In this document: positions 22,208-64,000 of the stretch, piece after piece
How positions within the stretch are numbered: position 1 is the first letter of the stretch
How the letters are laid out: the number at the start of each line of letters is the position of its first letter
Program-made: the position numbers and the translations under genes
Assembly: GCA_018433525.1 (NCBI GenBank)
Contig: JAHDRA010000043.1
Location: 1-64,000, forward strand
DNA from: Paludibacteraceae bacterium
GTDB lineage: Bacteria > Bacteroidota > Bacteroidia > Bacteroidales > Paludibacteraceae
Direction: 5' to 3'
Length of the DNA: 64,000 nt
The notes under the pieces: generated by a model
The model's database searches: none
What the model was told of the DNA's origin: nothing
What the model saw: the letters and a program-made list of their open reading frames with translations, nothing else

Positions 22208-22217
22208 TAAATTGCTT

Positions 22218-45324: not shown

Positions 45325-45361
45325 CAAAAAAGAAAGTGCCCTTTTGGGACACTCTCTTTTT
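45325..45361 (-). terminator. Intrinsic terminator at the end of the T9SS cargo array
   Basis: Stem AGAGAGTG-T-CCC paired with GGGCACTTTCT around an AAAA loop, then a T-run on the minus strand, 26 bp past the last stop of the array. Confidence 0.75.
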
Positions 45362-45386: not shown

Positions 45387-47810
45387 TTACTTTTCAATCA
45401 GCACTTTGGTTATACTTGAATTACCTTTGGTATCGTCAAGGCGAATGAAATACATTCCTGGAGTTAGTGTTGAAGTATCAAAATTAACTTCAGTGCTCAA
45501 ATTTTTACCTAAGTTCTTCACTAACTTACCATTTACATCGTACAAATTAAGCGAGGCTTTTGCATCATTTGCTATATTGAACTTCACAACTGCATTGCCT
45601 TTTACCGGATTTGGATAAATGTGTACCGGAGCTACAATGACTGCTGGAGAATAAATATAAGTAGAAAGTGGGTCAGATGCAAAGGTGCTTTCCTCTTTTA
45701 CACATTTCAGCGCAGCCACACGATATTCGTAAGGACCATCCACAGCAGTATAATCGTGCCATTCCTGCTTGTTCATATCTTGAATTACGATTGGGAAACT
45801 GCGGCTATCTAATGTTCCACCACCATAGTTGGGTGCACCTGATAAAGGTTTTGATAAAGTTGCCTCAAGCGAAGTTTTCGTTTCGTTTCGTGGACGGTAA
45901 GCTACAGTGTACCAGTTTGTTTCACCTACCTTACGCCGATCAACACGATAAGCCGTTTCGTTATCCACATCTGTCCATGCAATTTCAACGGCGCCGGTTG
46001 TGGCATTATATAAAATTTTATTAATAACAGGCGCTGTTGGATCGAACGTAGGGCAAGTGTTCATCCAGTCCTGTGGAGCTTCCATGGAATTCGTATTTAC
46101 CCACGAAGGACCACAATAATAAAGGGAGGGAGTTCCATTAAGGTCGTAGTTCTCAACGTGCGAAATGTCTTCGGCATAGTTCGGTTTTTGATCGCAAACA
46201 TTGGCACCCACTTTTCCCATAATTGTATTCCATCCCTGGAAAAGACCAATTACCCATGTATCATATGGACCAATATAACCTGATTCTCCATTATTATAAT
46301 CTGCTTGCTTATTATTCGTAATGGCAACAGAATAAACTTCAATACCATTGTGACGTTGCGCCAGAATACCTTCGCCATCATTTCCTCTTGATCCCGTTCC
46401 ACACCATGCATTGTCGTCAAACCACACATTATGACCACCATAGTCGATAAAACGCGCCATTAAGTCTGAAGCTGTTTCTGATGTTGAATAATCCCAACCA
46501 TCCAAAGCATAATGTGTTTGTTTATTATTATCGGTAGCTAAATATGGATATGGATTGGATAAACCGAGATGATGACGATAATTTACATTATTCTTAACCA
46601 CAACCCATGTACCTGCCACTTCAATTCCTTTATTTCCATGATTGTAAATCCAGTTATCGCGAATAATTACATTAGGTTCGTAAAATCCTTCCATATCGTT
46701 TACCACCGTGCGATTTGCACAGGCCGATAGCAGGTTTTTATTTACGTCAATACCGATAGCATTGGCATAGTCGTAAATTAACCATTTGTTATTGGCAGGG
46801 TTGTAACCGGAAGTAGTTGTATTATAAGAAGACGTAGGAGCTTGATAACTGAAACAAGCAGTCGGGAAATCAATCACATTATTAGCAACGAATACATTCT
46901 TTGCATCAATACCGATACGGGCACCAAAACGCCAACCTCCGTTTTCGTGACGGAAACCCTTAGAATAGATTTTTTTACGGTCGCAAACATAGTTAGGAGG
47001 CGTACAGTTGGTCATTTTTACACCAAACACCAATATCTTACTTGGAACTACAGAAACAGCCGAACCCCATGTTTTGGTTCCAGAGAATGGATCCATAAAA
47101 TGGGTACCATTGGGAATACGTTCATTCCAACCATTCATTTGTTTTCCCGAACCTCCAGTGTAAGTACTTGTAGCTGAACCCCAAGTAGGCGCCCAACCAT
47201 CGGCAAAGTCCATACCAAAGTAAATATAACCGAATTCCATTTCGATCCAGCAAACTCCCATGTGTGAGTTTTGACCTAAACTTGTTTCGTTAGCGCCTTT
47301 TGTCTGACCGATACAGTTCCACATTTTAGGAATGCTGTCGTTATTTACATCAATGGCAAATTCAGACAAACGACGAGTAAATTTAAATTTTGTTGGTAGT
47401 GAACTCAAACCATGGTTCATTAAATCAACCTGACCGGGAGCAGTATTTTTGCCGGTAACAGCAACTTTATCAGTAGCAGGAGTTTCACCAACAATAACAA
47501 CCCCTTTTTTAAGCATTAAACCTTCGTCGTTCGGACCATCAGGAATATCGAAAACATAAGTACCTGCCGGATAATACAATACGCCGCCACCCTGTGCATA
47601 TAACAAATCGCGTTTCGCTTTAAATTCAGCAAAATTGGCAGCACCCGAACCTTTGTTCTCCATGGTAATGCGGTTGTTCCACTGAATTTCGTTAATCCAT
47701 ACCGGATAACCTTCGGGGCCGTTGTAAAATTCCGCTACCGGATTTTGTGCCTGTAACAACCCGAGTGTACTCAGGGCGGTAAAAAGCATCGAAAAAATGG
47801 TCTTTTTCAT
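45387..47810 (-). CDS. T9SS-exported parallel beta-helix protein (pectate-lyase-like fold), A1
   Basis: 807 residues. Signal peptide to LLQAQ, then NPVAEFYNGPEGYPVWINEI. A pectate-lyase-3-like start (GGGVLYYPAGTYVFD, GLMLKKGVVIVGETP) opens a right-handed beta-helix with GARIGIDAKNVFVANNVID, LIYDYANAIGIDVNKN, VIIRDNWIYNHGNKGIEVAG and RGNDGEGILAQRHNG. A fibronectin-III-like domain follows (about 590-640, VEIAWTDVDNETAYRVDRR), then a type A T9SS domain (GMYFIRLDDTKGNSSITKVL). Related to the proteins at 53035 and 57688. Beta-helix proteins of this kind are often polysaccharide lyases or hydrolases; I cannot assign a family or substrate. Confidence 0.88.
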   Translation of the reverse strand: MKKTIFSMLFTALSTLGLLQAQNPVAEFYNGPEGYPVWINEIQWNNRITMENKGSGAANFAEFKAKRDLLYAQGGGVLYYPAGTYVFDIPDGPNDEGLMLKKGVVIVGETPATDKVAVTGKNTAPGQVDLMNHGLSSLPTKFKFTRRLSEFAIDVNNDSIPKMWNCIGQTKGANETSLGQNSHMGVCWIEMEFGYIYFGMDFADGWAPTWGSATSTYTGGSGKQMNGWNERIPNGTHFMDPFSGTKTWGSAVSVVPSKILVFGVKMTNCTPPNYVCDRKKIYSKGFRHENGGWRFGARIGIDAKNVFVANNVIDFPTACFSYQAPTSSYNTTTSGYNPANNKWLIYDYANAIGIDVNKNLLSACANRTVVNDMEGFYEPNVIIRDNWIYNHGNKGIEVAGTWVVVKNNVNYRHHLGLSNPYPYLATDNNKQTHYALDGWDYSTSETASDLMARFIDYGGHNVWFDDNAWCGTGSRGNDGEGILAQRHNGIEVYSVAITNNKQADYNNGESGYIGPYDTWVIGLFQGWNTIMGKVGANVCDQKPNYAEDISHVENYDLNGTPSLYYCGPSWVNTNSMEAPQDWMNTCPTFDPTAPVINKILYNATTGAVEIAWTDVDNETAYRVDRRKVGETNWYTVAYRPRNETKTSLEATLSKPLSGAPNYGGGTLDSRSFPIVIQDMNKQEWHDYTAVDGPYEYRVAALKCVKEESTFASDPLSTYIYSPAVIVAPVHIYPNPVKGNAVVKFNIANDAKASLNLYDVNGKLVKNLGKNLSTEVNFDTSTLTPGMYFIRLDDTKGNSSITKVLIEK

Positions 47811-47831
47811 TTTAGATTAATTTTAAAGGAT

Positions 47832-49160
47832 TTATTTTTTGATAAATTTATTGATTGTAATTGAATTATCGGCGTTTTTCACTTTTAAGAAATATACACC
47901 AGGTGTCAAATTAGTTATATCGATAGTTGTTACATCTGAATGGGCTTTGTACGCAGAGACTTGTACGCCTGTTAAATTTAAAATCTGAATATTACAGTTT
48001 TCAGAGGTGTTTACCCGCAGCAAATTATTCTTGATAGTATAGCTAACTGCATTTTTTGATACATTAGCTAATGAGGTTTCTAAATCCACAACATAAATAC
48101 CTTCTCTAAATGCAGTTGAAAGATAAACTATGGTGTCAGTAGCAATAACATCTGTCAAAAATACTTTATCGGCAGCCGGTGGATTAGCAATTCTATCTGA
48201 TTGGGAAGGGATAGACAAACCAGTTGCAAAAACTTCGAAAGTGTCTCCATTGTCCTTCGAAACGTACAAATTGTTTATACTCGCCATAGAGTAAAGATTT
48301 CCATTGGGTGAGCCTGTAATTTTTCGGCATTCCCAGTACTCAACACCCGCAGATAGCGAAGCTTCCCACGTTGTACCCATATCTTCCGAACGCCAAATAG
48401 CACCATCACTCCCATTCTGACCTCCATAATATATATATTTTTTATCGTTGTAAGTACGGGCATAAACTGCATATGGATTAAAGAATTTTCCCACGTGTTT
48501 GTACTGCCAGGTTGCGCCGTAATCTTCGGAATAAATTAAATAGTTATTGTTGTTTGCCACCTTATCCGTACCATAAACAATATTGTCACCGGGAAATACA
48601 TGAAGTCCTAACACATTTTTATATACTTTTCCATGTTCCGTATCGGCTTGTGGATAATTTGTCCAGGTAGCTCCACCATCATCCGAACGCCAGATACCGT
48701 TACCCCAAGTAGGATAAAGAATTATATCATTGCCGTTCTGATCTCTGATTTGTGTAAACTCTGAATATGCGCTACCAAAAGTGGAAAGTTTATCAGGATT
48801 CAGATTGGTTAGTTCCCATGTTGAACCATTTAGCTTATAAAGTACACTTGTAGTTTTAGTTGCATCATTGCTAGCGGTAACTAATACCAATGCTAATTTC
48901 AAATTTCCGAAACTCAGTCGGGTTACTTTTTCTCCTTGCAATCCGAAGGGTTCCCAATCGCCACCATTACCCGAAGGAGAAACCCAAATACCATCGTAGG
49001 TAGCCGCATACAACTTACCATTTTCGAGAACCATTCTACTAATGTTAAGATTAATCGTTCCACCTCCGGCTTTTGTTAAATCTAATTTTTGCCACGTTAG
49101 CGCATTGGCGGCAAAATAGCCGAACAGGATAAAAAGAAATAATGATGTAAATTTTTTCAT
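47832..49160 (-). CDS. T9SS-exported Asp-box beta-propeller protein, P1
   Basis: 442 residues. Signal peptide ends near ANA. Several Asp-box/BNR-type repeats: GIWRSDDGGATWTNY, YSEDYGATWQYKHV, IWRSEDMGTTWEAS, YVSKDNGDTFEVF, plus GIWVSPSGNGGDWEP near the start, giving a sortilin/sialidase-like propeller. C-terminal T9SS domain (LTPGVYFLKVKNADNS). The Asp boxes are structural and do not prove sialidase activity; I do not see the Arg triad region clearly. Its neighbour P2 is a tandem paralogue with the same length and repeat order. Confidence 0.88.
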   Translation of the reverse strand: MKKFTSLFLFILFGYFAANALTWQKLDLTKAGGGTINLNISRMVLENGKLYAATYDGIWVSPSGNGGDWEPFGLQGEKVTRLSFGNLKLALVLVTASNDATKTTSVLYKLNGSTWELTNLNPDKLSTFGSAYSEFTQIRDQNGNDIILYPTWGNGIWRSDDGGATWTNYPQADTEHGKVYKNVLGLHVFPGDNIVYGTDKVANNNNYLIYSEDYGATWQYKHVGKFFNPYAVYARTYNDKKYIYYGGQNGSDGAIWRSEDMGTTWEASLSAGVEYWECRKITGSPNGNLYSMASINNLYVSKDNGDTFEVFATGLSIPSQSDRIANPPAADKVFLTDVIATDTIVYLSTAFREGIYVVDLETSLANVSKNAVSYTIKNNLLRVNTSENCNIQILNLTGVQVSAYKAHSDVTTIDITNLTPGVYFLKVKNADNSITINKFIKK

Positions 49161-49206
49161 GACTTTATTTATTTAAATTGTTATTTTTATATAGAGCTTA
49201 AAAAGC

Positions 49207-50532
49207 TTATTTTTTCACAAAACGTCCAACTGAAAGTTCGCCACTCATTGAAAGTGATTTTACGAGGTACACCGATGCTCCCAAATCACCAATATTTAGT
49301 TTGCTTGTAGCATTGGAAGCAATTATTGTTTTGATTAATTTACCTGAAACCGAGTAAACTGAAATCTTTGAACCGGTTTCTGTTCTTACAATCAATTCAG
49401 TTTGATCGTCGCTTATAGAAATACTCAGTTTATCCGAATTGTTTAAATGCAGACCCGAACTAACCAACGAAAAAGCATAAATTCCCTGCGAAATTGTTGA
49501 TAAATACAATTTTTGATTCAGAATGAGCAAATGGGAATAATAAAAATTGACTGTTTCGGTTGACTGTGGCACTACAGCTTTTGAATTTAACGATTGAAAA
49601 GTATCGCCATTATCGGCAGATACATACACTTCTCCTCTACCCGATAATAGATATATCTTTCCCCTTTCGTCAGCAATCATCCTGCGATTATGCAATCCTC
49701 CGTCGCCCAATGTAAATGATGCGTCCCAGCTATTACCTCCGTCAGCCGAACGATACAAATAACCTTTTTCTCCATTTTCCCCTCCGTAATACAAATATTC
49801 TATACCATCAATAGTCTGCTTGTAAAGTGCCCATGGATTAAAAAAATTATCAACTTCCTTGTGTGTCCACGTTTGACCAAAGTCTGTTGAAATACTCAAA
49901 TATTGCATACGATAGTCAGCTTTGTCGAGTGCATAAACGGTATTACTTCCGGGAAAGGAAAAAACTCCGGGAATTTTCCGATAAAACTGATACCCATTGC
50001 TGGGGTGATCTTCGTAAGGTACCTGTATCCACGAGTCTCCTCCATCAGGTGAACGCCAGATACCATTGCCCCAGGTAGGGAGAATAATTACAACATCATC
50101 CCCGTTTTGTAGTTGCGCAAAATTTGTAAGATTATCGGGATAAGCTCCAAAAACGCTTAATTTTGCTGCATTAAATCCGGTATTTTCCCATGAGGAGCCA
50201 TTGTATTTATACAATTGAAGGGTAAATTTTGTAGCATCATCGCTAGCAGTTTCAATAGTAAGTGCTAACTTTAATATTTCAAAATTAAGTAAATATACTT
50301 TCTTTCCCTGAAGCCCAAAGGGAGTCCAGTCGCCACCATTAGCAGACGCCGACTCATAAATCCCATCATTGGTGCCCACATAAAGTTTGTTATCCTTAAC
50401 TGCCATCTGATAGGTTACAGGGGTTATTTCCCCCCCACCGGAAGCTTTTTCCATACTTATTTTATTCCACTGGCCAAACATGACAGTGTAGCTAAATATG
50501 AACAAAAAAACAAAAAAATAGTATTTTTTCAT
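49207..50532 (-). CDS. T9SS-exported Asp-box beta-propeller protein, P2
   Basis: 441 residues, a paralogue of the protein at 47832: same start pattern (GQWNKISMEKASGGGEITPV; GIYESASANGGDWTPFGLQG), GNGIWRSPDGGDSWIQVPYE, LSISTDFGQTWTHKE, LYRSADGGNSWDASF, YVSADNGDTFQSL. Signal peptide ends near MFG. T9SS domain at the C-terminus (SVYLVKSLSMSGELSVGRFV). The two genes are separated by 46 bp. Likely carbohydrate-binding or glycan-acting surface proteins, by analogy only. Confidence 0.88.
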   Translation of the reverse strand: MKKYYFFVFLFIFSYTVMFGQWNKISMEKASGGGEITPVTYQMAVKDNKLYVGTNDGIYESASANGGDWTPFGLQGKKVYLLNFEILKLALTIETASDDATKFTLQLYKYNGSSWENTGFNAAKLSVFGAYPDNLTNFAQLQNGDDVVIILPTWGNGIWRSPDGGDSWIQVPYEDHPSNGYQFYRKIPGVFSFPGSNTVYALDKADYRMQYLSISTDFGQTWTHKEVDNFFNPWALYKQTIDGIEYLYYGGENGEKGYLYRSADGGNSWDASFTLGDGGLHNRRMIADERGKIYLLSGRGEVYVSADNGDTFQSLNSKAVVPQSTETVNFYYSHLLILNQKLYLSTISQGIYAFSLVSSGLHLNNSDKLSISISDDQTELIVRTETGSKISVYSVSGKLIKTIIASNATSKLNIGDLGASVYLVKSLSMSGELSVGRFVKK

Positions 50533-50615
50533 ATATATTACTTTTAAAATTATAATATGTTAAGACGAATCAATTGAATTTTAGCCTTAATGTAAAATGT
50601 TAAATAAGACTAATA

Positions 50616-52955
50616 TTAATAAATCTGCATTTTTCTTGTCAGCACATATTGCCCCTCCTTAAATTTAACAAAATAAATTCCACTGTGTTTTTTAGAAAGA
50701 GGAATTGTATATATCTGTTTATTAAACTTTTTATCATCAGTAAACAAATAAATCGAACGCCCCATTAAATCAATCAATTCGATAGTAATACTACCAATAT
50801 ATGAAGAATTTACTTCAACATTTACTAATTCTTTAGCAGGATTCGGATACAATTCTATATTTCCATTTCTGTTTATTGCAACAGGGAAAATGTCAGAGAT
50901 AGTAGTCGAATACACAGGCAAATTGCCTGAAAAATCGACACGTAAAGAATCAGACTTACCAGCATAAATTCGCAAAATACGATTGCTTAACTCAAAATTT
51001 TTTCCTTTATAAACAGCTAAATTAGATGCAGAGACATTCACATTGTTCACACTCCAAGTTGGGACCCGTCCATAACCTTCGCCGTGTGGCCATTGTGGTT
51101 GAACAAAAGGTGGTGACTTTTGAGCAATCTGTGGGGTTGTAGGGCCATAGCCCCAGTCATATATGGGTTCTGTAAATGTTCCGCTACTATTGTATTGCAT
51201 AGAAATAACCTCTCCTTCGAGGTTTTTGTAAATAACGCGCCCCGATTCTACCTGGCTCTTATCCAATAGCGTTTTAGTCTGAATAGCATTTTTAAATGCC
51301 TCCAGCGAGGCATAATCGCGCTTGGATCCAACCTCAAGTACCAACCCGCACAATTCACCTTTGTTTGACGTATCTTTTATTCCATAATTGTCTGTGGCAG
51401 TAGTTACTGTAGGAGCAATTTGAGCAATCGAGCGAATGGCAACAAAATTACTATCGAGGGTAAAATAAGCTATATTATTTGCAATCTCGTAACTAACTGT
51501 AGCATTCTTCTTCCAAACAGCCATATACGAAAAGCTGGCATCGAGCACATCTGCTGACATATTTACCGGATTTGGCTTTGCGTCAAACGGAAAACGTTTC
51601 ATAAAATCGGTTGTCCAGTTAGATTTCCATGTTTCGATAATCGATTGAATTTCTGACTTAATTGCAGTAAAATTTAAAGGAACCTTTGTGGTTTGAATCA
51701 GCACATTGCGATGATGCACCACCTGATCCCAGGGCATGCGTCCACGGGCTTTATTCCATTCTTTACCTCCATATCCAACAATTACATTGGCTGTTTTTGC
51801 AGTAATAGTAGTATCGGGAGCAACTTTTCCGACAAATTTCCACATTTGGAATTGCGTATCACCCCCCGTAAAGCCTCCATAAGGCAAATAAGCTGCTCCT
51901 AAGGTAAATGTTTTACCCACATAAAAGGTTTGTTTAATAGCGCCGGGATTGTTAAGCAGGTATTCACCTTTGCTGTTGTAATACATAGAATTCAGAATAT
52001 CGGCTTTAGAAGCTAACTTCACAACAGCCATAGGCGGACGGTAAGTGGATGAAGCAGCATAAACAGCTGTAGCAGCTTCGTTATTTTGCGAACCAGGAGT
52101 GAAGGTTATTTTTTTGGGACTCTCGCCAAACCACAACCAACCCACATAATCACCATAATTTACGACACTTTCGTAACCTGAACTATTGCGCGACTCATAG
52201 CCTCCTGTAATTCCTTGAGTATAATGGAGCGCTACTTCAGCTGCATAATAATCAAGGACAGCACGAGCCACCAAACGCACATCAGGGTCTTTTGCTCTAT
52301 CGTAAAGTGCCAGCCAACCTGTAATACTGAAAGGCAAATATGTGCTCGAGTTCCATTCACCGGGACCGCTTGTGTAAAGCATTGCTGCCCAATCCATTAA
52401 CCAACTTTTCATTTCTGCTAATTTTTGTGCTGCATTAGGGAAATCATTCGGGAAACTGTCTTTTGCTATCTGGGCATACAAATATGCAGCTGTTCGGGTC
52501 ATTGCCAGATGGTTTTCCGTTCCTTCTGATGTAAATAAATTATAACTGTCTGTACGGTTCCACGCTGCAGTCAGATAATCCTTTATGTTCGATTTAACCG
52601 AAGGAGCATCCCAATAATGCGTAAAAATATACGTTTCGCCAACTACATTAAAATGAAATCGGTTATAAATACAGCTTTCTGTGTTGAAATGTGTAAGATA
52701 TTGATTCCCTTTAGGGTTGTTAATGCCGTATTTTTGAAACGATGCAACCACGATAGGCCAGTTGTATTTGCCATAGTCGGAAGGATTATTGCAGTTGTAC
52801 CAACCGGAAGCATCCCATTTATAATCGTCGGCTACATAGTTGATAATTTTTTGTGCACGGTATTTAAATTCACTCTCATAATCGGCTGCATGTAAATTTA
52901 TTACATGAAGTCCAATCATTATCAACAGTAAAAAAGTTTTTTTGAAATCAAACAT
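50616..52955 (-). CDS. T9SS-exported protein, predicted alpha/alpha-toroid, B1
   Basis: 779 residues. Signal peptide ends near LHAAD. The first 350 residues are helix-rich, with WPIVVASFQKYG, TSEGTENHLAMTRTAAYLYA and GEWNSSTYLPFSITGWLALY, a pattern like alpha/alpha-toroid polysaccharide lyases and hydrolases (a Glu-Asn-His element and a Trp-Asn-Ser element). A beta-rich second half carries GYGGKEWNKARGRMPWDQVV. Ends in a T9SS domain (HSGIYFVKFKEGQYVLTRKM). Paralogous to the protein at 55232. I do not recognise a named enzyme family; the fold class is an inference. Confidence 0.78.
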   Translation of the reverse strand: MFDFKKTFLLLIMIGLHVINLHAADYESEFKYRAQKIINYVADDYKWDASGWYNCNNPSDYGKYNWPIVVASFQKYGINNPKGNQYLTHFNTESCIYNRFHFNVVGETYIFTHYWDAPSVKSNIKDYLTAAWNRTDSYNLFTSEGTENHLAMTRTAAYLYAQIAKDSFPNDFPNAAQKLAEMKSWLMDWAAMLYTSGPGEWNSSTYLPFSITGWLALYDRAKDPDVRLVARAVLDYYAAEVALHYTQGITGGYESRNSSGYESVVNYGDYVGWLWFGESPKKITFTPGSQNNEAATAVYAASSTYRPPMAVVKLASKADILNSMYYNSKGEYLLNNPGAIKQTFYVGKTFTLGAAYLPYGGFTGGDTQFQMWKFVGKVAPDTTITAKTANVIVGYGGKEWNKARGRMPWDQVVHHRNVLIQTTKVPLNFTAIKSEIQSIIETWKSNWTTDFMKRFPFDAKPNPVNMSADVLDASFSYMAVWKKNATVSYEIANNIAYFTLDSNFVAIRSIAQIAPTVTTATDNYGIKDTSNKGELCGLVLEVGSKRDYASLEAFKNAIQTKTLLDKSQVESGRVIYKNLEGEVISMQYNSSGTFTEPIYDWGYGPTTPQIAQKSPPFVQPQWPHGEGYGRVPTWSVNNVNVSASNLAVYKGKNFELSNRILRIYAGKSDSLRVDFSGNLPVYSTTISDIFPVAINRNGNIELYPNPAKELVNVEVNSSYIGSITIELIDLMGRSIYLFTDDKKFNKQIYTIPLSKKHSGIYFVKFKEGQYVLTRKMQIY

Positions 52956-53034
52956 TATGAATTGAGAATATTTTTAAACATTATATTGACGAGAAAAAGA
53001 GCTGTTTTCCTTATAGAAAAATATTTTTTCCCTA

Positions 53035-55227
53035 TTATTTTTTTATCAGTTTAGCCGGATTATCATTGATTGAAACAAAATACAGACCCTTAGCAAGTGA
53101 GGTAAGAGATATTTTATCATTGTCAACCACTTGCTTTTCAAAAAGCAATTGACCATTAATACTAAAAATACGGAGTTGAACTTTTCGAAGTCCCGTTCCT
53201 GACAATTGAATATAATCATAAGCCGGATTTGGATAAAAATGCAGACTTTCTGTTCCGTTAATCAGCAGACCTGTATTCAGGTCAACAGCATCAGCCCTAA
53301 AAGTCCAACCAATAGAATCATTTTGAATATCCGTACCGGAAAGTTTTACAGCTCCGGCAGGTACAACTACGGTGTATGTTGACATATTATCGGAAAATCC
53401 ATCCTGATTCAGAATATTCAGGGTTTTATCGTTGATGGTGGACGAAAGAAATTTCTTTTGTCCCGACAGATTAGATTGTAAATAAATTCCACCAAGATTT
53501 ACGGCTTCTATTGGATGCGAAAACTCTAATTTCAATGAAGCTGTATCGCTTACATTATAAGCTCCGTGATAAGGCAGCTGCACTTTTGGTAATGCCTGAG
53601 CTGTAGAGAATTCCGATAGCCAAGAGGCATTTATATTACCCGAAACAATAGCCTGATAAGGAAATCCGATTCCGCCCGAAGACAGCATATTATTGCGAAT
53701 GTAAATATTTGAACCCGGCATGGCATATTCCGTACCCACTTTATTCCCTACAGCTATGCCGGTAATATTCACATTGTTTTCAATGTATAAATTATCAATA
53801 CGATAGATACGTTCTTTTTTAAATACCAGCACATTACCTTTACCTAACAAATCATTCCCAGTAATATGTAAATTACTTATTTGCAACTGAATATCGTAAA
53901 TTCCTATATATGAATTTGCCCTGTTATTTCGAATAGTTATATCATACATTCGGGTATTGGCACCACTTGCAGGATTATTGGTATCGAAACCCCAGGGGTC
54001 CTGCCACTGAATAAGAATACCTTCACCATCAACCGATTTATAGCCACTTACAAAATTGTGTCGTTCTACTTCTAAATCATTATTTTCTATAATGATATTT
54101 TCTCCGGCAAAATTTAAACCTCTGTTTTCGAAAGTTGCGGCATTATTGGAATTCAGGGATTTACCCGAAGGATGAATCCAGCCAATTTTTCCCGTTATAT
54201 CGCGCCTAACATTTCCACGTGCAATGGCTCCGATTCCTTCAATAAAATAACCTACACGCATGGTGGTGAGTACCCAGTTATTTTCGAGCAATATTTCCTG
54301 ATTAATTGGTACTGGATTTACAGCGGGATTCATACGTGCACCAGAAATAGCAATACCATAGTGATCTAAATAATTGAATTTAATACGGTCACCATACTTC
54401 ATGGTAGTTTGTCCTGAAGAACTAATCGATCCCGGATCATCCTCGGCAGTCGATGGGTCAGATCCTTTTTTGGCCACAAAACTTCCCTTAATTATGTATC
54501 CGGGCTGATCGTAACTATCATCCTCTATCGGATGAATAGTATTGTTTGTCAAGTCGTTAATCCTGCAATTTATTATAGCAGCCGCTCGTTTGGCAGATAC
54601 CGAAATATTACGGGTATGCCGATATGAAAAACGTTGCCATCCGTTCATATAAGTCATATCGGGGACACCAGGATCAGGTTGTGCAATATTATTTTGACGC
54701 ACACCAAAAACCAACACCCGCTCGCTCGTATTATTTCCTAATGATATGCGACCACGATTAATATCGAGATTGACCAAACCACAATTTGTAACAGTAACAG
54801 ATGTGGTAATTGATTTAAAAGCTGTGGAATTTGGTGTACCGTTACCTTCGAAAACAGGAATGTATTTTGGGAAAACCAACCGTGATGGTGGTGCAAAATT
54901 ATTGAGACGAGCATCGGTATTTATGGGAGCATCCCCCTTCAGAATCACATTCGAAGGCAGCGAAACATTATCAGAAAACTGATATTCGCCAGCGGGAAAA
55001 TACACTACTCCTCCGCCCGTTCCAAGTTGGCGGAAGGCACGGACTAAAGCTGAATCGACGGTAGTTTCGCCGGACTGAACAAAATCAGTAATCGTAAGCT
55101 GTGTATCCCAGTTGAGCGAATCTGTCCATAAAGGTGCGTTAGGAAACAAGCTGCGAACAGGGTTCGATGCAGAACTAATATGGAAACAAAAAACCAATAA
55201 GATGCTGAAAAAAAATGTATTTTTCAT
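53035..55227 (-). CDS. T9SS-exported parallel beta-helix protein, A2
   Basis: 730 residues. Signal peptide ends near SSA, then NPVRSLFPNAPLWTDSLNWD. It shows GTGGGVVYFPAGEYQFSDNV, PSNVILKGDAPINTD, beta-helix turns rich in Asn (ENNWVLTTMRVGYFIEG, NIIIENNDLEVERHNF, NIYIRNNMLSSGGIGF), and VDGEGILIQWQDPWG, which matches the NDGEGIL segment of A1 and A3. A Big/SWMA-like region (SLKLEFSHPIEAVNLGGIYL) precedes the T9SS domain (LAKGLYFVSINDNPAKL). The most divergent of the three beta-helix proteins. Function as for A1, unassigned. Confidence 0.87.
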   Translation of the reverse strand: MKNTFFFSILLVFCFHISSASNPVRSLFPNAPLWTDSLNWDTQLTITDFVQSGETTVDSALVRAFRQLGTGGGVVYFPAGEYQFSDNVSLPSNVILKGDAPINTDARLNNFAPPSRLVFPKYIPVFEGNGTPNSTAFKSITTSVTVTNCGLVNLDINRGRISLGNNTSERVLVFGVRQNNIAQPDPGVPDMTYMNGWQRFSYRHTRNISVSAKRAAAIINCRINDLTNNTIHPIEDDSYDQPGYIIKGSFVAKKGSDPSTAEDDPGSISSSGQTTMKYGDRIKFNYLDHYGIAISGARMNPAVNPVPINQEILLENNWVLTTMRVGYFIEGIGAIARGNVRRDITGKIGWIHPSGKSLNSNNAATFENRGLNFAGENIIIENNDLEVERHNFVSGYKSVDGEGILIQWQDPWGFDTNNPASGANTRMYDITIRNNRANSYIGIYDIQLQISNLHITGNDLLGKGNVLVFKKERIYRIDNLYIENNVNITGIAVGNKVGTEYAMPGSNIYIRNNMLSSGGIGFPYQAIVSGNINASWLSEFSTAQALPKVQLPYHGAYNVSDTASLKLEFSHPIEAVNLGGIYLQSNLSGQKKFLSSTINDKTLNILNQDGFSDNMSTYTVVVPAGAVKLSGTDIQNDSIGWTFRADAVDLNTGLLINGTESLHFYPNPAYDYIQLSGTGLRKVQLRIFSINGQLLFEKQVVDNDKISLTSLAKGLYFVSINDNPAKLIKK

Positions 55228-55231
55228 AATA

Positions 55232-57688
55232 TTATAATTTAATTACTTTAAAATTCTGACTTTCTTGTCCATTCGTAATTCTGAGAATATAAATTCCGGA
55301 GTTGCATCCCACAGGAGTTATCAGATCATTTTGAACTAAAAGTGGGACATTTTTCCCTTGTAAATCAACCATTTTCACGAAGATATTTTCACCAATATTT
55401 TTAATCCGAAATGAATTGCTAAATGGATTTGGAAAAATTTTCAAAGTATTTTCACGATTCAGTACACTAAAAGCTGAAGCGGTCTTTTTTTTCTCAATTT
55501 CAAATTTCACTTCTGCCGTTACTGGATCGATGGTAGTGCGTGATTTAGAACCTCCGGCATTTAATTCCAATACACCACTTCCCCATGCCTGATTGACGAT
55601 ATTTTGTCCGTAAACCGTACGGTACGAATCCCATGTTTGGTAGTCGATATACTGATTATTTCCCCACACTTTGGGATACGAACCAGCAGGAGAAAACGGA
55701 TTTGGCACGGGAGTATCGAAGGTAAATGGTGTCATTTCAAAACTTCCTGGAGCAACATATTCCATTTTTATAGTATTATTATTAGGAGAAGTGTATGAAA
55801 GTGTATTGGCATCTATTTCTGAAATATTTTTGGCTTGAACAGCAGTTACAAAAGCATTAAAATCAGTGTAATCGTTATCGGTAGCCAGTTCGAAAACCAA
55901 ACAACCCAACTGATTTGCCTCCCAGCGAAAAGAAAGTTGTGTATGTGTATTAGCTTCGCCGGAAGTTACTTTAATAATTTCAACAGGCTGAGGATAGGGT
56001 TTTACAGCTAAAAAAACATCGGGACGCAACTGCAAATACAAATCATTGTCAATCCACTTGTATTTTTGCACATCCCAAAAATCGGCTTCACCTGTGGTTT
56101 CAAATTGTTTCAACGAATCGGGAATAACCAACCAGATTTTATTCAGATTAGCATTGCTGTGTTTCACCATTTGCATCATCATGTTGCGGAACTGACCTAT
56201 TTCGTGCTGTGGCGAACGGCCCGCTGTGGTTGTTTGTGCTCCGCCATTTCCCGATAACATTCGTGCACCGTTTTGCTGTCCCTTTACGCCAATGCGCCAC
56301 ATACATTGTTCCGAAAAAGTTCCCATTGCTCCATCCGGACGGCCAACTGCCGCACTTGCCATGGTTACATTTTTGTCGATCCAGGTGGTTTCAAATTCAA
56401 AACGACGACCTTTCCCAGTTGCGTTCCATGCATTGTATGGAAACTCGCCATTGATAGTACCATCGATGTTAAAATAGCGCCCATGATCGATGTGGTAAAA
56501 AGGTTTAGCACTTTGTATTTCAACCGGTAAAGAAAAATTGCGCTGAGCAATATCTATAATTATTTGAGGTGGACGATACGAAGAACTCAGTTGAAATCCT
56601 ATTTCCATTTCGGTAGGATCTTTTGTTGCCAACAATTGGTCGGAACACGAAAGTTTAAAATTTGAATCTGTAAAATAAGGAATGGTATATTGATAATACG
56701 AACCTTTGAAGGGAACAAATGATCCTGTCTTGGCTCTGGCATCGGCGGCCACCTGCGCTCCATCCACAAAATGAATGGCTGCTTCGAGCATCATCCAATC
56801 CAAACAGGCCTGCGCACGTTTCTTATTTTCGGATCCATTGGGGTCGTTGCATTTTTCTGCACCTTCGTAAATAGTTAACAACGGATTAAGCGTATGACCA
56901 AAATAATTGTTTGAGTTCCATTCCACACGCCCTGCATTGTACAACGCACGCGTCAGATTTTTTAAAAATCCGTCGAAATAGGCAATGGCATTTACATTGG
57001 TTGGATATATCGTTTTGGTTACAGGAGAACTTACACCTGTGCGAAGTAATATACCATTCGAAGACAAATCGAGATTAGTCATGTCCAGCGTTTTCGAACC
57101 AACGGTTTTATTGTGTAACTCATGCGAAAACAAATAACCGGCAGCACGCATCATCCAATGAAAATTTTCGGAATTAAATTCTTTTCCACCGGCAGCATTG
57201 TAACCACAGCAGGGGTCGAAAACATGATCAGTTTTCATAAGTTGATGAAACATACTTTTAACATCCGAGTAAATCAAATCTACCTGAGTTGGATCATTTG
57301 CGGCAATTTCATCTTTCCAACGGAAATAATACATGGCATATCCGGCGCAACTGAAGGGCGAATAAAAACTCCCCACGTTGCTTCCGTTCACCATATTGCG
57401 ACCGGTAGCGATAAATGATTTAAGGGTTGTTGCACTTGAGTTTGTAACTGGCCAGGCCATTTTAGCTAATAATTTTGACCACTCCGATTTTCCACTGTCA
57501 GCATTTCCATTCGAAGGATTGGGGTTGTACAATGGAATTCGTGTCCCCCACATGAGATTTATGCGTTGCTGATAACCCGACTCCCATGCTGCAGCTGGGC
57601 GTGGAAGTTGAGGCACAATACTATCGGTTTGCGAATAACCAAATTTACAAAGAAACAGCAGAATTATTCCTATAGTATATCGTTGCAT
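55232..57688 (-). CDS. T9SS-exported protein, predicted alpha/alpha-toroid, B2
   Basis: 818 residues. Signal peptide ends near GYSQ. Paralogue of the protein at 50616 with equivalent elements: KEFNSENFHWMMRAAGYLFS (against GTENHLAMTRTAAYLYA), GRVEWNSNNYFGHTLNPLLT (against GEWNSSTYLPFSITG), SSYRPPQIIIDIAQR (against STYRPPMAVVKLASK) and GRSPQHEIGQFRNMMMQM. A beta-sandwich-like second half and a T9SS domain (NSGIYILRITNGQESQNFKV) follow. It starts 1 bp before the stop of the A3 gene, so the two are translationally close. Predicted glycan-active, no family assigned. Confidence 0.78.
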   Translation of the reverse strand: MQRYTIGIILLFLCKFGYSQTDSIVPQLPRPAAAWESGYQQRINLMWGTRIPLYNPNPSNGNADSGKSEWSKLLAKMAWPVTNSSATTLKSFIATGRNMVNGSNVGSFYSPFSCAGYAMYYFRWKDEIAANDPTQVDLIYSDVKSMFHQLMKTDHVFDPCCGYNAAGGKEFNSENFHWMMRAAGYLFSHELHNKTVGSKTLDMTNLDLSSNGILLRTGVSSPVTKTIYPTNVNAIAYFDGFLKNLTRALYNAGRVEWNSNNYFGHTLNPLLTIYEGAEKCNDPNGSENKKRAQACLDWMMLEAAIHFVDGAQVAADARAKTGSFVPFKGSYYQYTIPYFTDSNFKLSCSDQLLATKDPTEMEIGFQLSSSYRPPQIIIDIAQRNFSLPVEIQSAKPFYHIDHGRYFNIDGTINGEFPYNAWNATGKGRRFEFETTWIDKNVTMASAAVGRPDGAMGTFSEQCMWRIGVKGQQNGARMLSGNGGAQTTTAGRSPQHEIGQFRNMMMQMVKHSNANLNKIWLVIPDSLKQFETTGEADFWDVQKYKWIDNDLYLQLRPDVFLAVKPYPQPVEIIKVTSGEANTHTQLSFRWEANQLGCLVFELATDNDYTDFNAFVTAVQAKNISEIDANTLSYTSPNNNTIKMEYVAPGSFEMTPFTFDTPVPNPFSPAGSYPKVWGNNQYIDYQTWDSYRTVYGQNIVNQAWGSGVLELNAGGSKSRTTIDPVTAEVKFEIEKKKTASAFSVLNRENTLKIFPNPFSNSFRIKNIGENIFVKMVDLQGKNVPLLVQNDLITPVGCNSGIYILRITNGQESQNFKVIKL

Positions 57689-59868
57689 TAACGTACAATT
57701 TTTGTTGTTATAGTTTTTATATCCGATTGAAATATAAGCAGATAAATACCTGAAGCTAAATTTTGAAAAGAAAAAATGTTCTTTTTTATTTCCTCTCTGA
57801 CAAGTATTTTTCCCGAAATATCTGAAATGGTTATATATGGGTGATTTTCGATGGAGTTAAAAACAATTTTATCTTTGAGAATTTTAAATTCAGTGTTTGA
57901 AAAATCAATGAGATTTGCGGTTGAACCCGAGTTCAGGATTACCGATGCGGGTGAAGCGCCCGCATTGTTGTTATTACAATCAATTGCCACAACACGGTAT
58001 TGGAAGTTTATATTTTTCGGATACAAGTAATCGCGCCAGATCTGTTCATTGAATGTACTACCGGCACTTTTACGTGGTCGAAAAACAATCGTTTTCCATT
58101 CGCCTGTCCCGTCTTTGCGGTCGATACGGAAACCGATTTCGTTGGTCGAAGCATCGGTCCACGAAATGGTTACGTACTTTTTTTCAGCTTCGAAAGCCAC
58201 AACAGGAGCTTCCGGAGCTGCTGGTGAATTGGTTGGGCAAGTTGTAAGCACATCGTTACCGGTAGTTACCACATTTCCGGTATTGCTGACAATGGCTACA
58301 TCAGTCATAGTGCCAGCTTTGTAGTTGCCGATATTGGTGGTGGTGTTCCATGCCCACAACGAACCTTCGTGCGAGACATCGTACCCCGCCATATAACCCG
58401 AAGTACCGTTGTTGTTTGTAATGGCAAACGACCAGATACTGTTCATTCCGCCATGCGCTTGCCAGAGTATTCCTTCACCATCGTTACCGGGATTGGAGCC
58501 TGTATTGTTGTAAAAATTGTTGTCAATCCATCCGTTTTTTCCTGCCATATCGAAAGCACGCGAGAGATTATCGGACAAGCAACCATTTCCTCCGGGTACA
58601 CTTTCGTAAAAGCCATCAAGCGTAAGTTCCCAACCGGGACCCAACCCATAGCGGTCAGCGCCTTCCTGCAGATAATCGCGGACATTTTTATTATTGCGAA
58701 CCAAAAACCAATTTCCCGAAATTTCGAACCCCTTGTTGCCGTGATTATACACATTATTATCCTGAATAATTACATTTTCGGCCAAATAACCCGGAAGTGT
58801 ATTGCCGAACGGATTCAGAAAACATTTGTTGACGTCCAAACCGATGGCTTTTCCATAATCATAAATCAACGTTTTTCGATGATTGCCAAACGCCTGATTG
58901 CATTTATCCTGCTGCGTAATGGCTGTGGTTTGGTAATATTTAAAACAACTATCAGGTTTAGGCAGATAGTTATTAGCAACAAAAGTATTGCTTCCATACA
59001 CGCCAATACGCGCACCGAATTTATAAGGATAAGTGGACTGAGCAATACTATCGTATTTTTCTTTGGCATACTGTATAATGTTATGATTGCCGACAACCGC
59101 GTTTTTAATCACACAACCCATCACAATCCGTCCTGCACCTACACCCACAAAACTTCCGTTGGCAGCCGCAAAAGCATCGAATGGATGTGTACCATCAGGG
59201 ACACGGGTTTTCCATTCGCCTTTCGAAGCTTTGTTGCTGTACCAACCCAAACCACCGCTATACGATGATGAAAATGGATATTCAGCACCAAAATAAACTA
59301 CACCACCATTGAGTTCTACCCAAAGAATTCCAATGTTCGTTATGTCTTTAAGCGTTTCAGAACCTGAAGGAATGCAGCCTACTATATTCCAGTTTACCGG
59401 AATGGAGCGGTCATTGTTATTGATATCCTTTATTTTTTTTGTTTTAAAAATGAATTTTGTGAGCGGCTGCAACGTTCCCGAAATGGCATTGTCGGCTGTT
59501 GGTTTTTCGCCCAAAATCACTACACCACTCCGAAGCATTAAGCCCCTGCCCGCTTCACCATCCGAGATATTTTCAGGAACATTCGTAAAATCGTAACTGC
59601 CGGCAGGATAATACAAAACGCCGCCCCCCTGTTGGTACAATATATCACGCGCAAATTCAAATTTCTGAAAATCGGTAGCAGGCAGTTTTAATCCGGCTTT
59701 ACCAAAATCGTATGTTTGCATGTTGATTTGATTTGTCCAACGAATATTGTCAGTCCACACCGGATAATTTCCATTGCCGTAAAATTCAGCAACCGGATTT
59801 TGAGATAGCAATAGCAAACTGCTAAGGCCACAGAAAAGCAATGTTAATATTTTTCTGAATGTAATCAT
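57688..59868 (-). CDS. T9SS-exported parallel beta-helix protein, A3
   Basis: 726 residues, the closest relative of A1 in the array: NPVAEFYGNGNYPVWTDNIR, GGGVLYYPAGSYDF, GLMLRSGVVILGEKP, GARIGVYGSNTFVANNYLP, LIYDYGKAIGLDVNK, VIIQDNNVYNHGNKGFEISG and NDGEGILWQAHGG. A fibronectin-III-like segment (VTISWTDASTNEIGFRIDRK) and a T9SS domain (ASGIYLLIFQSDIKTITTKI) close it. Signal peptide ends near LLLSQ. Its stop overlaps the start base of the B2 gene. Possible lyase or hydrolase on a polysaccharide; unassigned. Confidence 0.88.
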   Translation of the reverse strand: MITFRKILTLLFCGLSSLLLLSQNPVAEFYGNGNYPVWTDNIRWTNQINMQTYDFGKAGLKLPATDFQKFEFARDILYQQGGGVLYYPAGSYDFTNVPENISDGEAGRGLMLRSGVVILGEKPTADNAISGTLQPLTKFIFKTKKIKDINNNDRSIPVNWNIVGCIPSGSETLKDITNIGILWVELNGGVVYFGAEYPFSSSYSGGLGWYSNKASKGEWKTRVPDGTHPFDAFAAANGSFVGVGAGRIVMGCVIKNAVVGNHNIIQYAKEKYDSIAQSTYPYKFGARIGVYGSNTFVANNYLPKPDSCFKYYQTTAITQQDKCNQAFGNHRKTLIYDYGKAIGLDVNKCFLNPFGNTLPGYLAENVIIQDNNVYNHGNKGFEISGNWFLVRNNKNVRDYLQEGADRYGLGPGWELTLDGFYESVPGGNGCLSDNLSRAFDMAGKNGWIDNNFYNNTGSNPGNDGEGILWQAHGGMNSIWSFAITNNNGTSGYMAGYDVSHEGSLWAWNTTTNIGNYKAGTMTDVAIVSNTGNVVTTGNDVLTTCPTNSPAAPEAPVVAFEAEKKYVTISWTDASTNEIGFRIDRKDGTGEWKTIVFRPRKSAGSTFNEQIWRDYLYPKNINFQYRVVAIDCNNNNAGASPASVILNSGSTANLIDFSNTEFKILKDKIVFNSIENHPYITISDISGKILVREEIKKNIFSFQNLASGIYLLIFQSDIKTITTKIVR

Positions 59869-59895
59869 AAACTTTAGATTGCCTGTGTATAGAAA

Positions 59896-62457
59896 CTATT
59901 TAATCACTACTTTTTGTGTAATTACATTTTGCGCTGTTACAATTTGAACGATATACACTCCAGCAACACAATTCAGTTTGAATTGGGAATAATTGCTTGT
60001 TTTTGCTGATTTTTGTATCAAATGCCCATTCAGATCGTACACATTTACACTAAATTGTTGATTGTCGGAAGCAAAAATCCGAATGATATTTTTATCTGCA
60101 AATATTTTAAAACCTGCACTTTGAATACCATTTATTTGTGTCGGGCTGCTAATAATTACAGTTGTTGTAGCAGTAATACCTTCGCTTTGAGCTGTAATTG
60201 TATAAATTCCCGGAGCTGAGGCCTGAAAAACGCCATCGTTCGAAATTGTTCCACCATTATTTACCGAAAAAGTAACCGGCTTATTCATAACCGAACCATA
60301 TTGATCAAAAAGATTGGCATAAAATTTTCGCGAAACGTTGGGTAACAGTGTTATATTCTCAGGCCATAAACGCATTGATTCAGGAATGGAGGCATTTCGA
60401 TCGTAAATTAGCTGTAAAGTAGGCTTCAGCACCCCTGTTGATTCTTTTGAGGCCGGCTCCAATACGGGATCGCCATTCGAATTAACCCATTGAGTTGTCA
60501 AAACAAATGTAATAGAAGCATCACCGGCAAGTCTTCTTGTTTCGATGTAATTTGTAAAATCTGTTCCCTGATAAACTACTTTTTCAGAGGTATTTGTTTT
60601 ATTAATTTTGAAAATTCCCAATGAGTCTGCTTTGGTTTTATCCATACTCCATGGAGATGTAATATCATTCCCAAATGCCGAAGAATTGTTCCACGTAAGT
60701 GTTGCCTCACTCCAATTGTCGAAACCTTTTTTCAATGCATAAACAATGGCTTGTCCATTATTATATTTTCCTGATTTATAAAGCAATAGACGTGCATCTT
60801 TAATTGGTTTTTGTAAATTCTGCAAATTGAATTTAAAATATGCTTTGGAAGTATTGGCAGGTCGGTCATCCTGTCGTTTCACCAATAAGGTTGCGGCAGT
60901 ACCAAAGGTCTTGGCAGCATCTCCCATTCGAATGTTTGTGTCTTCCGTAGTAATAATTTCCTCGGCTTCAATCTCTTTATCGTTATCATCAAATACGACA
61001 AGGTATCCATCATTGGCACCTCCGTAAGTATTTTGAAATGGATTGACACAAAAGACCGACGCAGTTGTAGCTGTACCAACTGCTGCATACCGATAGGTAT
61101 TCCTGTCTCGAGCTACTTTATTCATGGCATCAACGCCTGCAGGATGTGTAACAAATTTTCGTTGGGTTCCCAATGTAGGATGATATACTATTTTCATTAT
61201 AACTCCATTTGAACCTCCGCTTTCCCATGCGTTCACATCGGGTATTCCGCTAGTTCTTCCGGTATAAAAAATAGAATTATTGAAACCGCGAGTTACACCA
61301 TACCATCTGTTCCATGTATTGTATGGCTTAATGGCATGCATTCGTATCCATTCCCCGTTTTTATTCATAAGTCCGATAGTACTTGCCGATGTCGCACCAC
61401 TGAAACCTGCAAAACTATCTCCATCTGATATTCCTGCAGGTACAGGTGTTCCGGTAAAATTGTTATACCCTCCATACCAAGGGTCATATTGAAAAACAGT
61501 AGCACCTCCATCGGAATATCCTATCATCAAGATATTTCCGACTGAATCGGTACCTAATGCATTCACTTGCGAATCGGAAATAAGCCGGTTGGCGCCAATG
61601 GAAGCCTGAGGAAAATTATATATACCATAATCTTTCGAGTTACTGCCTCTTTTCCAGTTTTGCGAGCCATCGGAACCATTGAATGAAAAAAGATAAGGAT
61701 CTTTGTAAGGTTCAAAGCCTGTATTGCCCATTCCGTAACCCCCCACATATACCAAATCGCCCTGCGGACTTACAGCAACCGCATTGGTACGGGCAGATCC
61801 ACACCAAACATCGAATGTGCGGGTCCACACAAAACCCGACAAGTCTGGCTTAATTCGTGAAAGGTAATCGGCCCAATCGCCATTTTTATCGTGATTAACG
61901 CACAAATCTCCGTTTGGAAAAACATCAATATCATTCACATCCCGATCTGAATCGCCTCCACCCAGATATGTAGCATTCAGAATTTGAGAACCATCTAACG
62001 AAACCCGAACAATGGCAGGCTTTGAACCCGGAGCGCTGTCAATTTTGCCATCGAAACCAGGTAGTTGAGCAAAAGAATTGTATCCAACAGCTACAATATA
62101 GATACCGTTTTCGGTAACTGCAAGTCGTAAATCTTTTATTTTAATACTGCCTGTGGCAAAGCGCGAAAAGCTGAGAATTTGCTGTCCATTATTCGAAAGT
62201 CGTAGAATATAAGCCGATTCGAGTGAAGATGGATTGTCGGTTCCAAAAAGATATGTCGGAATATTGCCCGGAACGGTGAGGGCAGGCGTATTATCTGTAG
62301 TACCTATTACAATCAACGTTCCATCGTCGGCAAAAGCCACATCGTGTAAAATCTCGTTTCCGCTACCTCCAAAATAGCTTGCCGTAATACGTACAGGATA
62401 AGCATGTACTGTAAAAACAGTAACTGAAAACAATAAAAACAATAATGATTTTTTCAT
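59896..62457 (-). CDS. T9SS-exported propeller / DNRLRE (CBM96-like) / Ig-like protein, S
   Basis: About 853 residues from the ATG at 62457, chosen because MKKSLLFLLFSVTVFTVHA is a clean signal peptide; an upstream ATG at 62484 is also open but overlaps the promoter. N-terminal SBBP-like propeller (YFGGSGNEILHDVAFADDGT, ATYLGGGDSDRDVNDIDVFP). Residues about 510-680 form a DNRLRE domain (DTNIRMGDAAKTFGTAATLL, YFKFNLQNL), a carbohydrate-binding type (CBM96-like). A bacterial Ig-like repeat (VTFSVNNGGTISNDGVFQAS) precedes the T9SS domain (AGVYIVQIVTAQNVITQKVV). First gene of the array. Confidence 0.85.
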   Translation of the reverse strand: MKKSLLFLLFSVTVFTVHAYPVRITASYFGGSGNEILHDVAFADDGTLIVIGTTDNTPALTVPGNIPTYLFGTDNPSSLESAYILRLSNNGQQILSFSRFATGSIKIKDLRLAVTENGIYIVAVGYNSFAQLPGFDGKIDSAPGSKPAIVRVSLDGSQILNATYLGGGDSDRDVNDIDVFPNGDLCVNHDKNGDWADYLSRIKPDLSGFVWTRTFDVWCGSARTNAVAVSPQGDLVYVGGYGMGNTGFEPYKDPYLFSFNGSDGSQNWKRGSNSKDYGIYNFPQASIGANRLISDSQVNALGTDSVGNILMIGYSDGGATVFQYDPWYGGYNNFTGTPVPAGISDGDSFAGFSGATSASTIGLMNKNGEWIRMHAIKPYNTWNRWYGVTRGFNNSIFYTGRTSGIPDVNAWESGGSNGVIMKIVYHPTLGTQRKFVTHPAGVDAMNKVARDRNTYRYAAVGTATTASVFCVNPFQNTYGGANDGYLVVFDDNDKEIEAEEIITTEDTNIRMGDAAKTFGTAATLLVKRQDDRPANTSKAYFKFNLQNLQKPIKDARLLLYKSGKYNNGQAIVYALKKGFDNWSEATLTWNNSSAFGNDITSPWSMDKTKADSLGIFKINKTNTSEKVVYQGTDFTNYIETRRLAGDASITFVLTTQWVNSNGDPVLEPASKESTGVLKPTLQLIYDRNASIPESMRLWPENITLLPNVSRKFYANLFDQYGSVMNKPVTFSVNNGGTISNDGVFQASAPGIYTITAQSEGITATTTVIISSPTQINGIQSAGFKIFADKNIIRIFASDNQQFSVNVYDLNGHLIQKSAKTSNYSQFKLNCVAGVYIVQIVTAQNVITQKVVIK

Positions 62458-62481
62458 AAAAAAATATAAAAAGGTTATTAA

Positions 62482-62489
62482 CAAATTTA
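62482..62489 (-). promoter_or_regulatory. Promoter -7 box ahead of T9SS cargo array
   Basis: TAAATTTG on the minus strand, 24 bp before the chosen start of the first array gene. The remaining gap to the transposase remnant (62490-62703) has a short TTAATGTG tandem and nothing else I can support. Confidence 0.4.
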
Positions 62490-62703: not shown

Positions 62704-63761
62704 TCATTCGTGTTTGTGTATGCAATACATGTGGGTTTCATAAATTGAAAGTGAAATTTTTGTCAAGTGTTTGATATATATAACAATCAGATGAGTACAA
62801 ATTGCCTTCCACAAGTTTATCTTGACAGCATTTGGAGAATGCCCCCAAAGTTTTTTGACTGTTAGATTTTGCTTTATCCATTTCAAAAACACCTCAATTT
62901 GCCAACGATTTTTGTACAAATATGTCTTTTCAAGGGAAAATATATCAAAATTATTGGTCAAAAACAGCAGTAATGCGTCGTTTTCGCTGTGGTAAAATTC
63001 AAAAGACGAAGTTTTTCGGGATAAGAGCATTTCGTCTTTGGAACAGTAAGTTCTATTATCCTGTCGGTTCTCAGTGCGGTCGTTTGATCAATACTGCTCA
63101 ACAATGCTATACAGTAAGGTGGATTTTGCCCGTGTGACAAAAAATGCACCTGCAGTATTTATACGAAACCAAGCCTCGAAATCGACATAAGCCTTGTCCA
63201 TCACATAAAATGGAATTACATCCAACGCATTGCTGTCATGATATTTCCCGTCTGTAATCAGGATAAATTTCGGTATGCTCCCACGCAAGTCGAGCAGTGT
63301 ATGCATTTTTACGGCTCAGCGTGAATATTTGCCTTCTGCCCAGGTAAAAAGATTGATACTTACCGATATGGTTGTTGAGTCAAGTGCAAATATCTCGTTT
63401 TCAATATCAATGCCCGGAACAGGAAAATCAGCATAAAGGGGACGAACAGGGTTTAATAATTACCGAAATCGGCAAAAATCCGCCAGTCTCACTGCTCGTT
63501 CGCAAGCGAAAAAGTTGTTTGGTCAACATACTTCTTAATACCTAAGTGATAAAGTTTACCTTTATGCGCTTTCAGGCCCAGACAAATGAAGCGAAGCGAT
63601 TCCAAAGAGGTCATTTAACCAAAAAGCAAGTGGATAAAATGATTCCAACAGTTCAGTTGATGAATGTGATAATCTCCCTTGTAACGCTTTACGCATTTGT
63701 TGAACTCATATTTGTTCACAAATTCCAACACTTGTGCAAACACATATTTACCTGAATACAT
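62704..63761 (-). pseudogene. Decayed IS4-family transposase
   Basis: Read in pieces on the minus strand: an N-terminal domain from ATG 63761 (GKYVFAQVLEFVNKYEF, RYKGDYHIHQLNCWN), then in-frame stops where FGQ and NxRDW would be expected, a frameshift near NY, the first catalytic Asp region (FALDSTTISVSINLFTWAEG), another stop, MHTLLDLRGSIPKFILITDG and FYVMDKAYVDFEAW with the second Asp, a further stop, and a C-terminal piece YKNRWQIEVFLKWIKQNL with the catalytic Glu. The C-terminus is shorter than in intact relatives. At least four stops or shifts make it inactive. I found no clear terminal inverted repeats. The region 63762-64000 holds nothing I can identify. Confidence 0.88.
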
Positions 63762-64000
63762 AATAATTTTGTGATTAATAGATCAAAAACCGCAAAATTA
63801 TTACTTTTCAAATCAAGTCGTAAAATCAAAGATCGCTTATAATGTATTTAATATTAGATGATTACAAAAATATTCTCAAAATTAACGCACAACTGATTAA
63901 TACCTGACGAAATTTCGCAACATAATCCCTAAACATTGTAAATATCAAATATTTATTTAACACACTTAAGGATTGATCAATTTACCCAGCACCTCCACAT

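Follow-up and report, generated by a model that had tools for sequence, protein, structure and literature searches.

Eight consecutive minus-strand genes at 45387–62484 in a 64,000-base window of a Paludibacteraceae bacterium genome (bases 1–64000 of the 141,669-base contig C70) are best interpreted as a surface arm within an extended polysaccharide utilization locus (PUL). The products comprise a predicted beta-helix family (A1, A2, and A3), a predicted (alpha/alpha)-toroid family (B1 and B2), two propellers (P1 and P2), and a DNRLRE/CBM96 protein (S). We judge it reasonably probable that these genes form such a cell-surface arm in which A and B are uronate lyases or C5-epimerases cooperating on one acidic polymer. 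Evident from sequence are the genes themselves, their type IX secretion system (T9SS) tails, the neighboring glycoside hydrolase (GH) GH29, GH88, GH42, GH92, SusC, and SusD genes, and the proximity and fusion of A and B elsewhere. Open reading frame (ORF) calls reproduced the gene order of the initial annotation (S, A3, B2, A2, B1, P2, P1, and A1 along the minus strand) and its mostly tiny gaps, which measure 21, 46, 83, 79, 4, −1, and 27 bases from A1 to S. That annotation had also assigned all eight products a signal peptide and a type IX sorting domain: a hydrophobic N-terminal stretch is present in each, and seven of the eight tails pass the curated cut-off for PF18962 or TIGR04183, the P2 tail lying just under both (20.3 bits vs 27; 19.9 bits vs 23). 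The array thus contains at least seven, and probably eight, T9SS-tailed proteins in a row. The genome (2.57 Mb, 132 contigs, 11 SusD-like matches) encodes matches to SprA_N (E 1.9e-198) and PorP/SprF (E 1.2e-35), and its 60 PF18962 matches indicate that a run of eight such genes is not a chance arrangement; further clusters of T9SS genes lie on contigs C124, C19, and C78.

The beta-helix assignment of the A family, made previously for three paralogues, is upheld by sequence identity (A3 is 35% identical to A1 and 25% to A2) and by the predicted structure of A3; predicted structures cover A3 and B2, and the folds of A1, A2, and B1 follow by homology. A3 (57688–59868, 726 residues) is modeled as a parallel beta-helix, followed by an FN3 domain and T9SS tail, and is closest in fold to mannuronan C5-epimerases and alginate lyases (AlgE4/AlgE6, the epimerase/lyase 8ja4, and RbmB), from which it differs in its FN3 and T9SS extension and in an identity of ∼18%. 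A1 (45387–47810, 807 residues) is a predicted beta-helix T9SS protein, as is A2 (53035–55227, 730 residues), which also carries a Big_5 domain (PF13205, 34 bits). No catalytic Pfam family was matched by A1, A3, B1, or B2, and A2 barely exceeded the cut-off for PF12708 (27.1 bits vs 27); a sequence search of the PDB with A2 retrieved tails only. Residues D463, E465, and R437 are invariant in the A-family alignment (57/57).

The proposed pair of toroid paralogues is likewise borne out: B1 (50616–52955, 779 residues) and B2 (55232–57688, 818 residues) share 22% identity by BLASTP and match as profiles with 100% probability (E 1.2e-61), and the B2 model (pLDDT 91.8) consists of an (alpha/alpha) toroid and a beta-sheet domain. 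This predicted two-domain fold may correspond to that of the toroid polysaccharide lyase (PL) families PL12, PL15, PL17, PL21, PL33, and PL39 and of dermatan sulfate epimerase 1 (a superfamily that also takes in PL8), with modest scores to the PL17/PL33/heparinase/dermatan-sulfate-epimerase fold. Asn148-His149 and Tyr206 of B1 are jointly present in 39 of 40 aligned sequences, a spacing in line with that between catalytic His/Asn and Tyr in the PL toroid superfamily (∼55 residues; available portions of PMC8006597 and PMC11848413). B2 lacks the His: Asn and Tyr are present in 57/57 aligned sequences at a spacing of 48–86 residues, and the His position is occupied by Phe or Tyr. Catalysis in PL33 uses Asn and Tyr. 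Residues E174, N175, E256, R318, K320, and E460 of B2 are also invariant (57/57). Neither B protein matched a Pfam lyase model at E ≤ 0.1 or a PL chain in the PDB by phmmer at E ≤ 1 or by profiles, and no single PL family was matched by sequence. B1 and B2 are each likely to be a polyuronate lyase or epimerase.

Two other interpretations bear on these folds. A and B could be hydrolases of the same locus, namely a GH28-like beta-helix and a toroid glycosidase, as the best Foldseek matches of A3 include polygalacturonase 3jur and galacturonidase 5olp, and GH105 4wu0 and GH127 6ex6 occur among the fold matches of B2; we regard this as unlikely. It is improbable that both families serve as noncatalytic surface scaffold or adhesion proteins, given the invariant polar residues of B2 and A and the existence, in phyla that have no T9SS, of A-B fusions devoid of T9SS tails.

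Association of A with B extends beyond this genome. Searching genome contigs with the B2 alignment yielded 19 B2 loci, 13 of which contain an A-type gene. The two are adjacent or fused in eight of the 19 (L012 and L013 [both through B2-A2], L015, L020, L021, and L025, with fusions in L027 and L028) and are separated by a single gene in L022 and L023 and by two in L011, L019, and L017; of the six loci without A (L014, L016, L018, L024, L026, and L029), four lie on contigs shorter than 9 kb. Of the 199 homologues retrieved with A3 and B2, six carry A and B stretches within one protein, in A-B order in P0063, P0146, P0178, P0074, and P0162 and in B-A order in P0076, with P0178 and P0162 covering just part of B. 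This count is a lower bound, as the length limit of the search would conceal longer fusions. L028 provides an additional fusion in a 2010-residue open frame, and the L027 fusion and P0074, which lie on contigs of matching length, are probably one gene. The named sources span three phyla: Verrucomicrobiota (P0074 and P0178), Planctomycetota (P0076), and Bacteroidota (L028). These fusions and neighborhoods support the joint action of A and B suggested by the initial annotation. A check of the two points on which that proposal could have failed, a gene order conserved nowhere or folds foreign to carbohydrate-active proteins, did not refute it. It is possible, though less likely than not, that A and B are two undescribed families constituting a conserved epimerase-plus-lyase pair, often encoded next to each other and sometimes fused, that rewrites and cuts a uronate polymer in tandem in Bacteroidota, Verrucomicrobiota, Planctomycetota, and Fibrobacterota, and that is here expanded to three A and two B proteins and placed on the surface by T9SS.

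A further suggestion, that A-B blocks were duplicated together, was not supported. In a tree of 43 beta-helix rows, A1, A2, and A3 fall into separate clades, each with relatives from other lineages: A2 clusters with Caldithrix rows (support 100/100), A1 with Chitinivibrionales of the Fibrobacterota (94/86, just short of the starred level), and A3 within a larger clade spanning several phyla. Adjacent A2-B1 was found in 0/19 loci. Block duplication was rejected, and the separate clades favor the assembly of old families into a single operon over recent copying of blocks. Portions of the order are kept elsewhere, with B2-P2-P1-A1 retained in L011 and L019; L011 reads GH29-B2-P2-P1-A1, the order found here minus S-A3 and A2-B1. 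L012 contains GH94, a deacetylase, GH3, A3, a PKD/T9SS protein, B2, A2, GH88, and B1, and in L020 a gene resembling glucuronyl esterases lies upstream of B2, at a distance of two genes. A peptidase C10 gene with a T9SS tail lies near B2 in two phyla (L024:7298–9961 and L017:4198–6939).

Distribution of the two families is patchy. An A match was present in 13 of the 17 genomes behind the B2 loci (one weak), and GH88 in 14 of 18 B2 genomes, our own included. In a 286-genome class sample centered on genome G463, strong B2 relatives were confined to G463 and G468, as were strong A relatives, with weak matches in G703 for B and in G484 and G719 for A; since G463 was picked for having B2, G468 is the sole independent case of co-occurrence. 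Among 60 relatives, the only A3 match was a tail fragment. A 395-genome phylum sample, which includes the present genome and for which two candidates were scored per genome, returned matches in 209 genomes; among the matches listed, these reflect the FN3/tail part, and whole-profile A or B matches occur in the present genome only.

The initial annotation described the array as self-contained, without SusC/SusD, regulator, or nonsurface enzymes. This is true to the window edge only: the edge cuts the locus, which accounts for the apparent absence of SusC/SusD, and the contig sequence past it led to the rejection of a self-contained array. Upstream of S, a broken IS4-like DDE transposase (62707–63782, minus strand; DUF4372 E 1.5e-16, DDE_Tnp_1 E 4.2e-7) precedes a minus-strand GH29 gene (63966–65060, of which the window holds the 3′ end, 63966–64000; PF01120 E 2e-47), GH88 (65110–66831, minus; PF07470 E 8e-9), and, at 66828–69308 (minus), a PKD/T9SS protein. 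The start of this last protein resembles that of heparinases, yet it has no Pfam or PDB lyase match, and its reading as a heparinase was rejected. On the plus strand follow GH42 (70268–72367; E 4.7e-110), GH92 (74789–77005; E 1.2e-129), a second GH42-like gene, SusC (81370–84624), and SusD (84667–86436; PF14322 E 8.9e-19), and past SusD lie GH3, GH42, and an FAD oxidoreductase, with a minus-strand GH94 gene further along. The adjacent SusC and SusD genes, 19 kb from S and on the strand opposite to the array, together with nearby GH92, GH42, GH88, and GH29, constitute a SusC/SusD locus. A second SusD-like gene is present at C70:116727–117320.

An autonomous surface array requiring no SusC/SusD would accord with the tight gaps and strong terminator, which mark one unit, and with the transposase remnant that parts the array from GH29. 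We consider this very improbable, given that SusC/SusD and GH88 share the contig and that relative L015 (A3-B2-sigma-FecR-SusC-SusD-B1) holds SusC/SusD and a regulator within the gene set itself, between B2 and B1. AlgE-type epimerases are secreted and remodel the producer's own polysaccharide, and the A and B proteins might similarly remodel a capsule or exopolysaccharide of the cell rather than attack a foreign polymer as food. The fold proximity of A3 to AlgE4/AlgE6 and RbmB, the latter a lyase that acts on the biofilm polymer of the organism producing it (available portions of PMC11637428), is in keeping with such a role. It appears quite unlikely, as GH88, GH92, GH42, GH29, and SusC/SusD here and in relatives indicate catabolism and no glycan biosynthesis cluster was detected among Pfam-scanned neighbors, which represent part of the contig genes.

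In the favored surface-arm mechanism, all eight proteins would be exported by the T9SS and attached to the surface, where S, P1, and P2 may bind or trim the polymer. A3 and then B2 would act on the same chain: A would epimerize uronates or nick the chain at them, and B would cleave by beta-elimination, a step suggested by the folds, the B1 signature, and the co-occurrence of GH88; joint action on one uronate polymer is suggested by A-B adjacency and fusion. Other linkages would fall to A1, A2, and B1, while GH88 would take off the 4,5-unsaturated uronic acid left by lyases, the other glycosidases would trim fucose, galactose, mannose, or glucose units, and SusC/SusD would import the resulting oligosaccharides. 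Two sulfatases are encoded in the genome and none on C70; the substrate is therefore probably unsulfated, and a sulfated polymer is disfavored. Xanthan is a lead only, prompted by the resemblance of GH88, GH92, GH3, and GH94 to xanthan loci, while GH29 and GH42 speak otherwise. The xanthan locus of Bacteroides intestinalis includes GH3, GH5, GH88, GH92, a PL-carbohydrate esterase (PL-CE), and TonB transporters (available portions of PMC10881899). GH3, GH88, GH92, and SusC/SusD are likewise found here, as is a GH94 gene, which the R.UCG13 xanthan locus also has, and L012 contains a deacetylase. In contrast, xanthan would leave GH29 and GH42 unexplained, the scanned genes include no xanthanase GH5 (GH5 was not searched for across the genome), and the available portions of PMC10881899 do not describe the A and B families.

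Overall, this is a utilization locus of ordinary kind with an unusual T9SS surface arm. As in other Bacteroidota SusC/SusD PULs, one contig brings together surface proteins, GH genes, and a SusC/SusD pair, and L015 has an extracytoplasmic function (ECF) sigma/FecR pair; it differs from them in its row of at least seven T9SS-tailed surface proteins and in core enzymes from families without catalytic Pfam models. The usual surface design of SusC/SusD loci employs lipoproteins; if our reading is correct, the entire attack step of a SusC/SusD-type locus is here delivered by type IX secretion. A literature search found no paper describing the A or B families, which look new and linked. If the reading holds, they would represent two new polyuronate-active families without a catalytic Pfam model (bar the borderline PF12708 match of A2), connected in several phyla through gene proximity and fusion, and a natural epimerase-lyase pair, and the A-B fusions make joint action testable with one purified protein.

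P1 (47832–49160, 442 residues; PF15902 40 bits, PF18962 37.5 bits) and P2 (49207–50532, 441 residues; PF15902 43.4 bits) are 38% identical and match Sortilin/BNR propeller models, confirming their annotation as Asp-box propeller paralogues; a PDB sequence search with P1 retrieved a fragment of xyloglucan hydrolase (E 1.1e-4). S (59896–62457, 853 residues) matches CBM96/DNRLRE (PF24517, 62.8 bits) and TIGR04183 (54.2 bits), with N-terminal repeats read as a propeller; its ATG start at 62457 (MKKSLLFLL...) is more likely than a TTG at 62484. The N-terminal part of S has weak BLASTP matches near A/B in L020, L021, L022, L023, and L028 (E 3e-9 to 2e-4), and phmmer, even with filters off, found nothing among 546 ORFs; S is at most a candidate for a conserved third partner. 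The strong terminator predicted at one end of the array is present ∼25 bases past A1 (45327–45361, minus strand) as a hairpin of 15 pairs and an accompanying T-run (−19 kcal/mol, z −6.05), which a simple pattern scan missed. The promoter box placed at the other end exists as a weak TAnnTTTG sequence before S (TAAATTTG, 62482–62489, minus strand), yet such boxes number 98 in the window vs 81 expected, no more than chance predicts, and a two-box promoter pattern had no match before S. Composition gave no signal of recent import (G+C 39.4% in the array vs 38.7%).

Several other genes were noted. An alpha-amylase family gene (42900–44735) lies on the same strand ∼650 bases downstream of the array, past the terminator. 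At 21299–28781, a PorP/SprF-type protein adjoins a 2187-residue protein that combines SprB repeats and PKD domains with a CHU_C tail; the two are likely a T9SS pair of their own, for gliding or adhesion. A GlcNAc 2-epimerase (AGE) domain is joined to a T9SS tail at C70:109898–111781 (L064:9898–11781). Finally, a second minus-strand T9SS cargo run with seven PF18962 matches occupies ∼33253–54815 of contig C124 (L035 and L036) and includes a gene with a GH88 domain (C124:35838–36992; E 3.2e-67).

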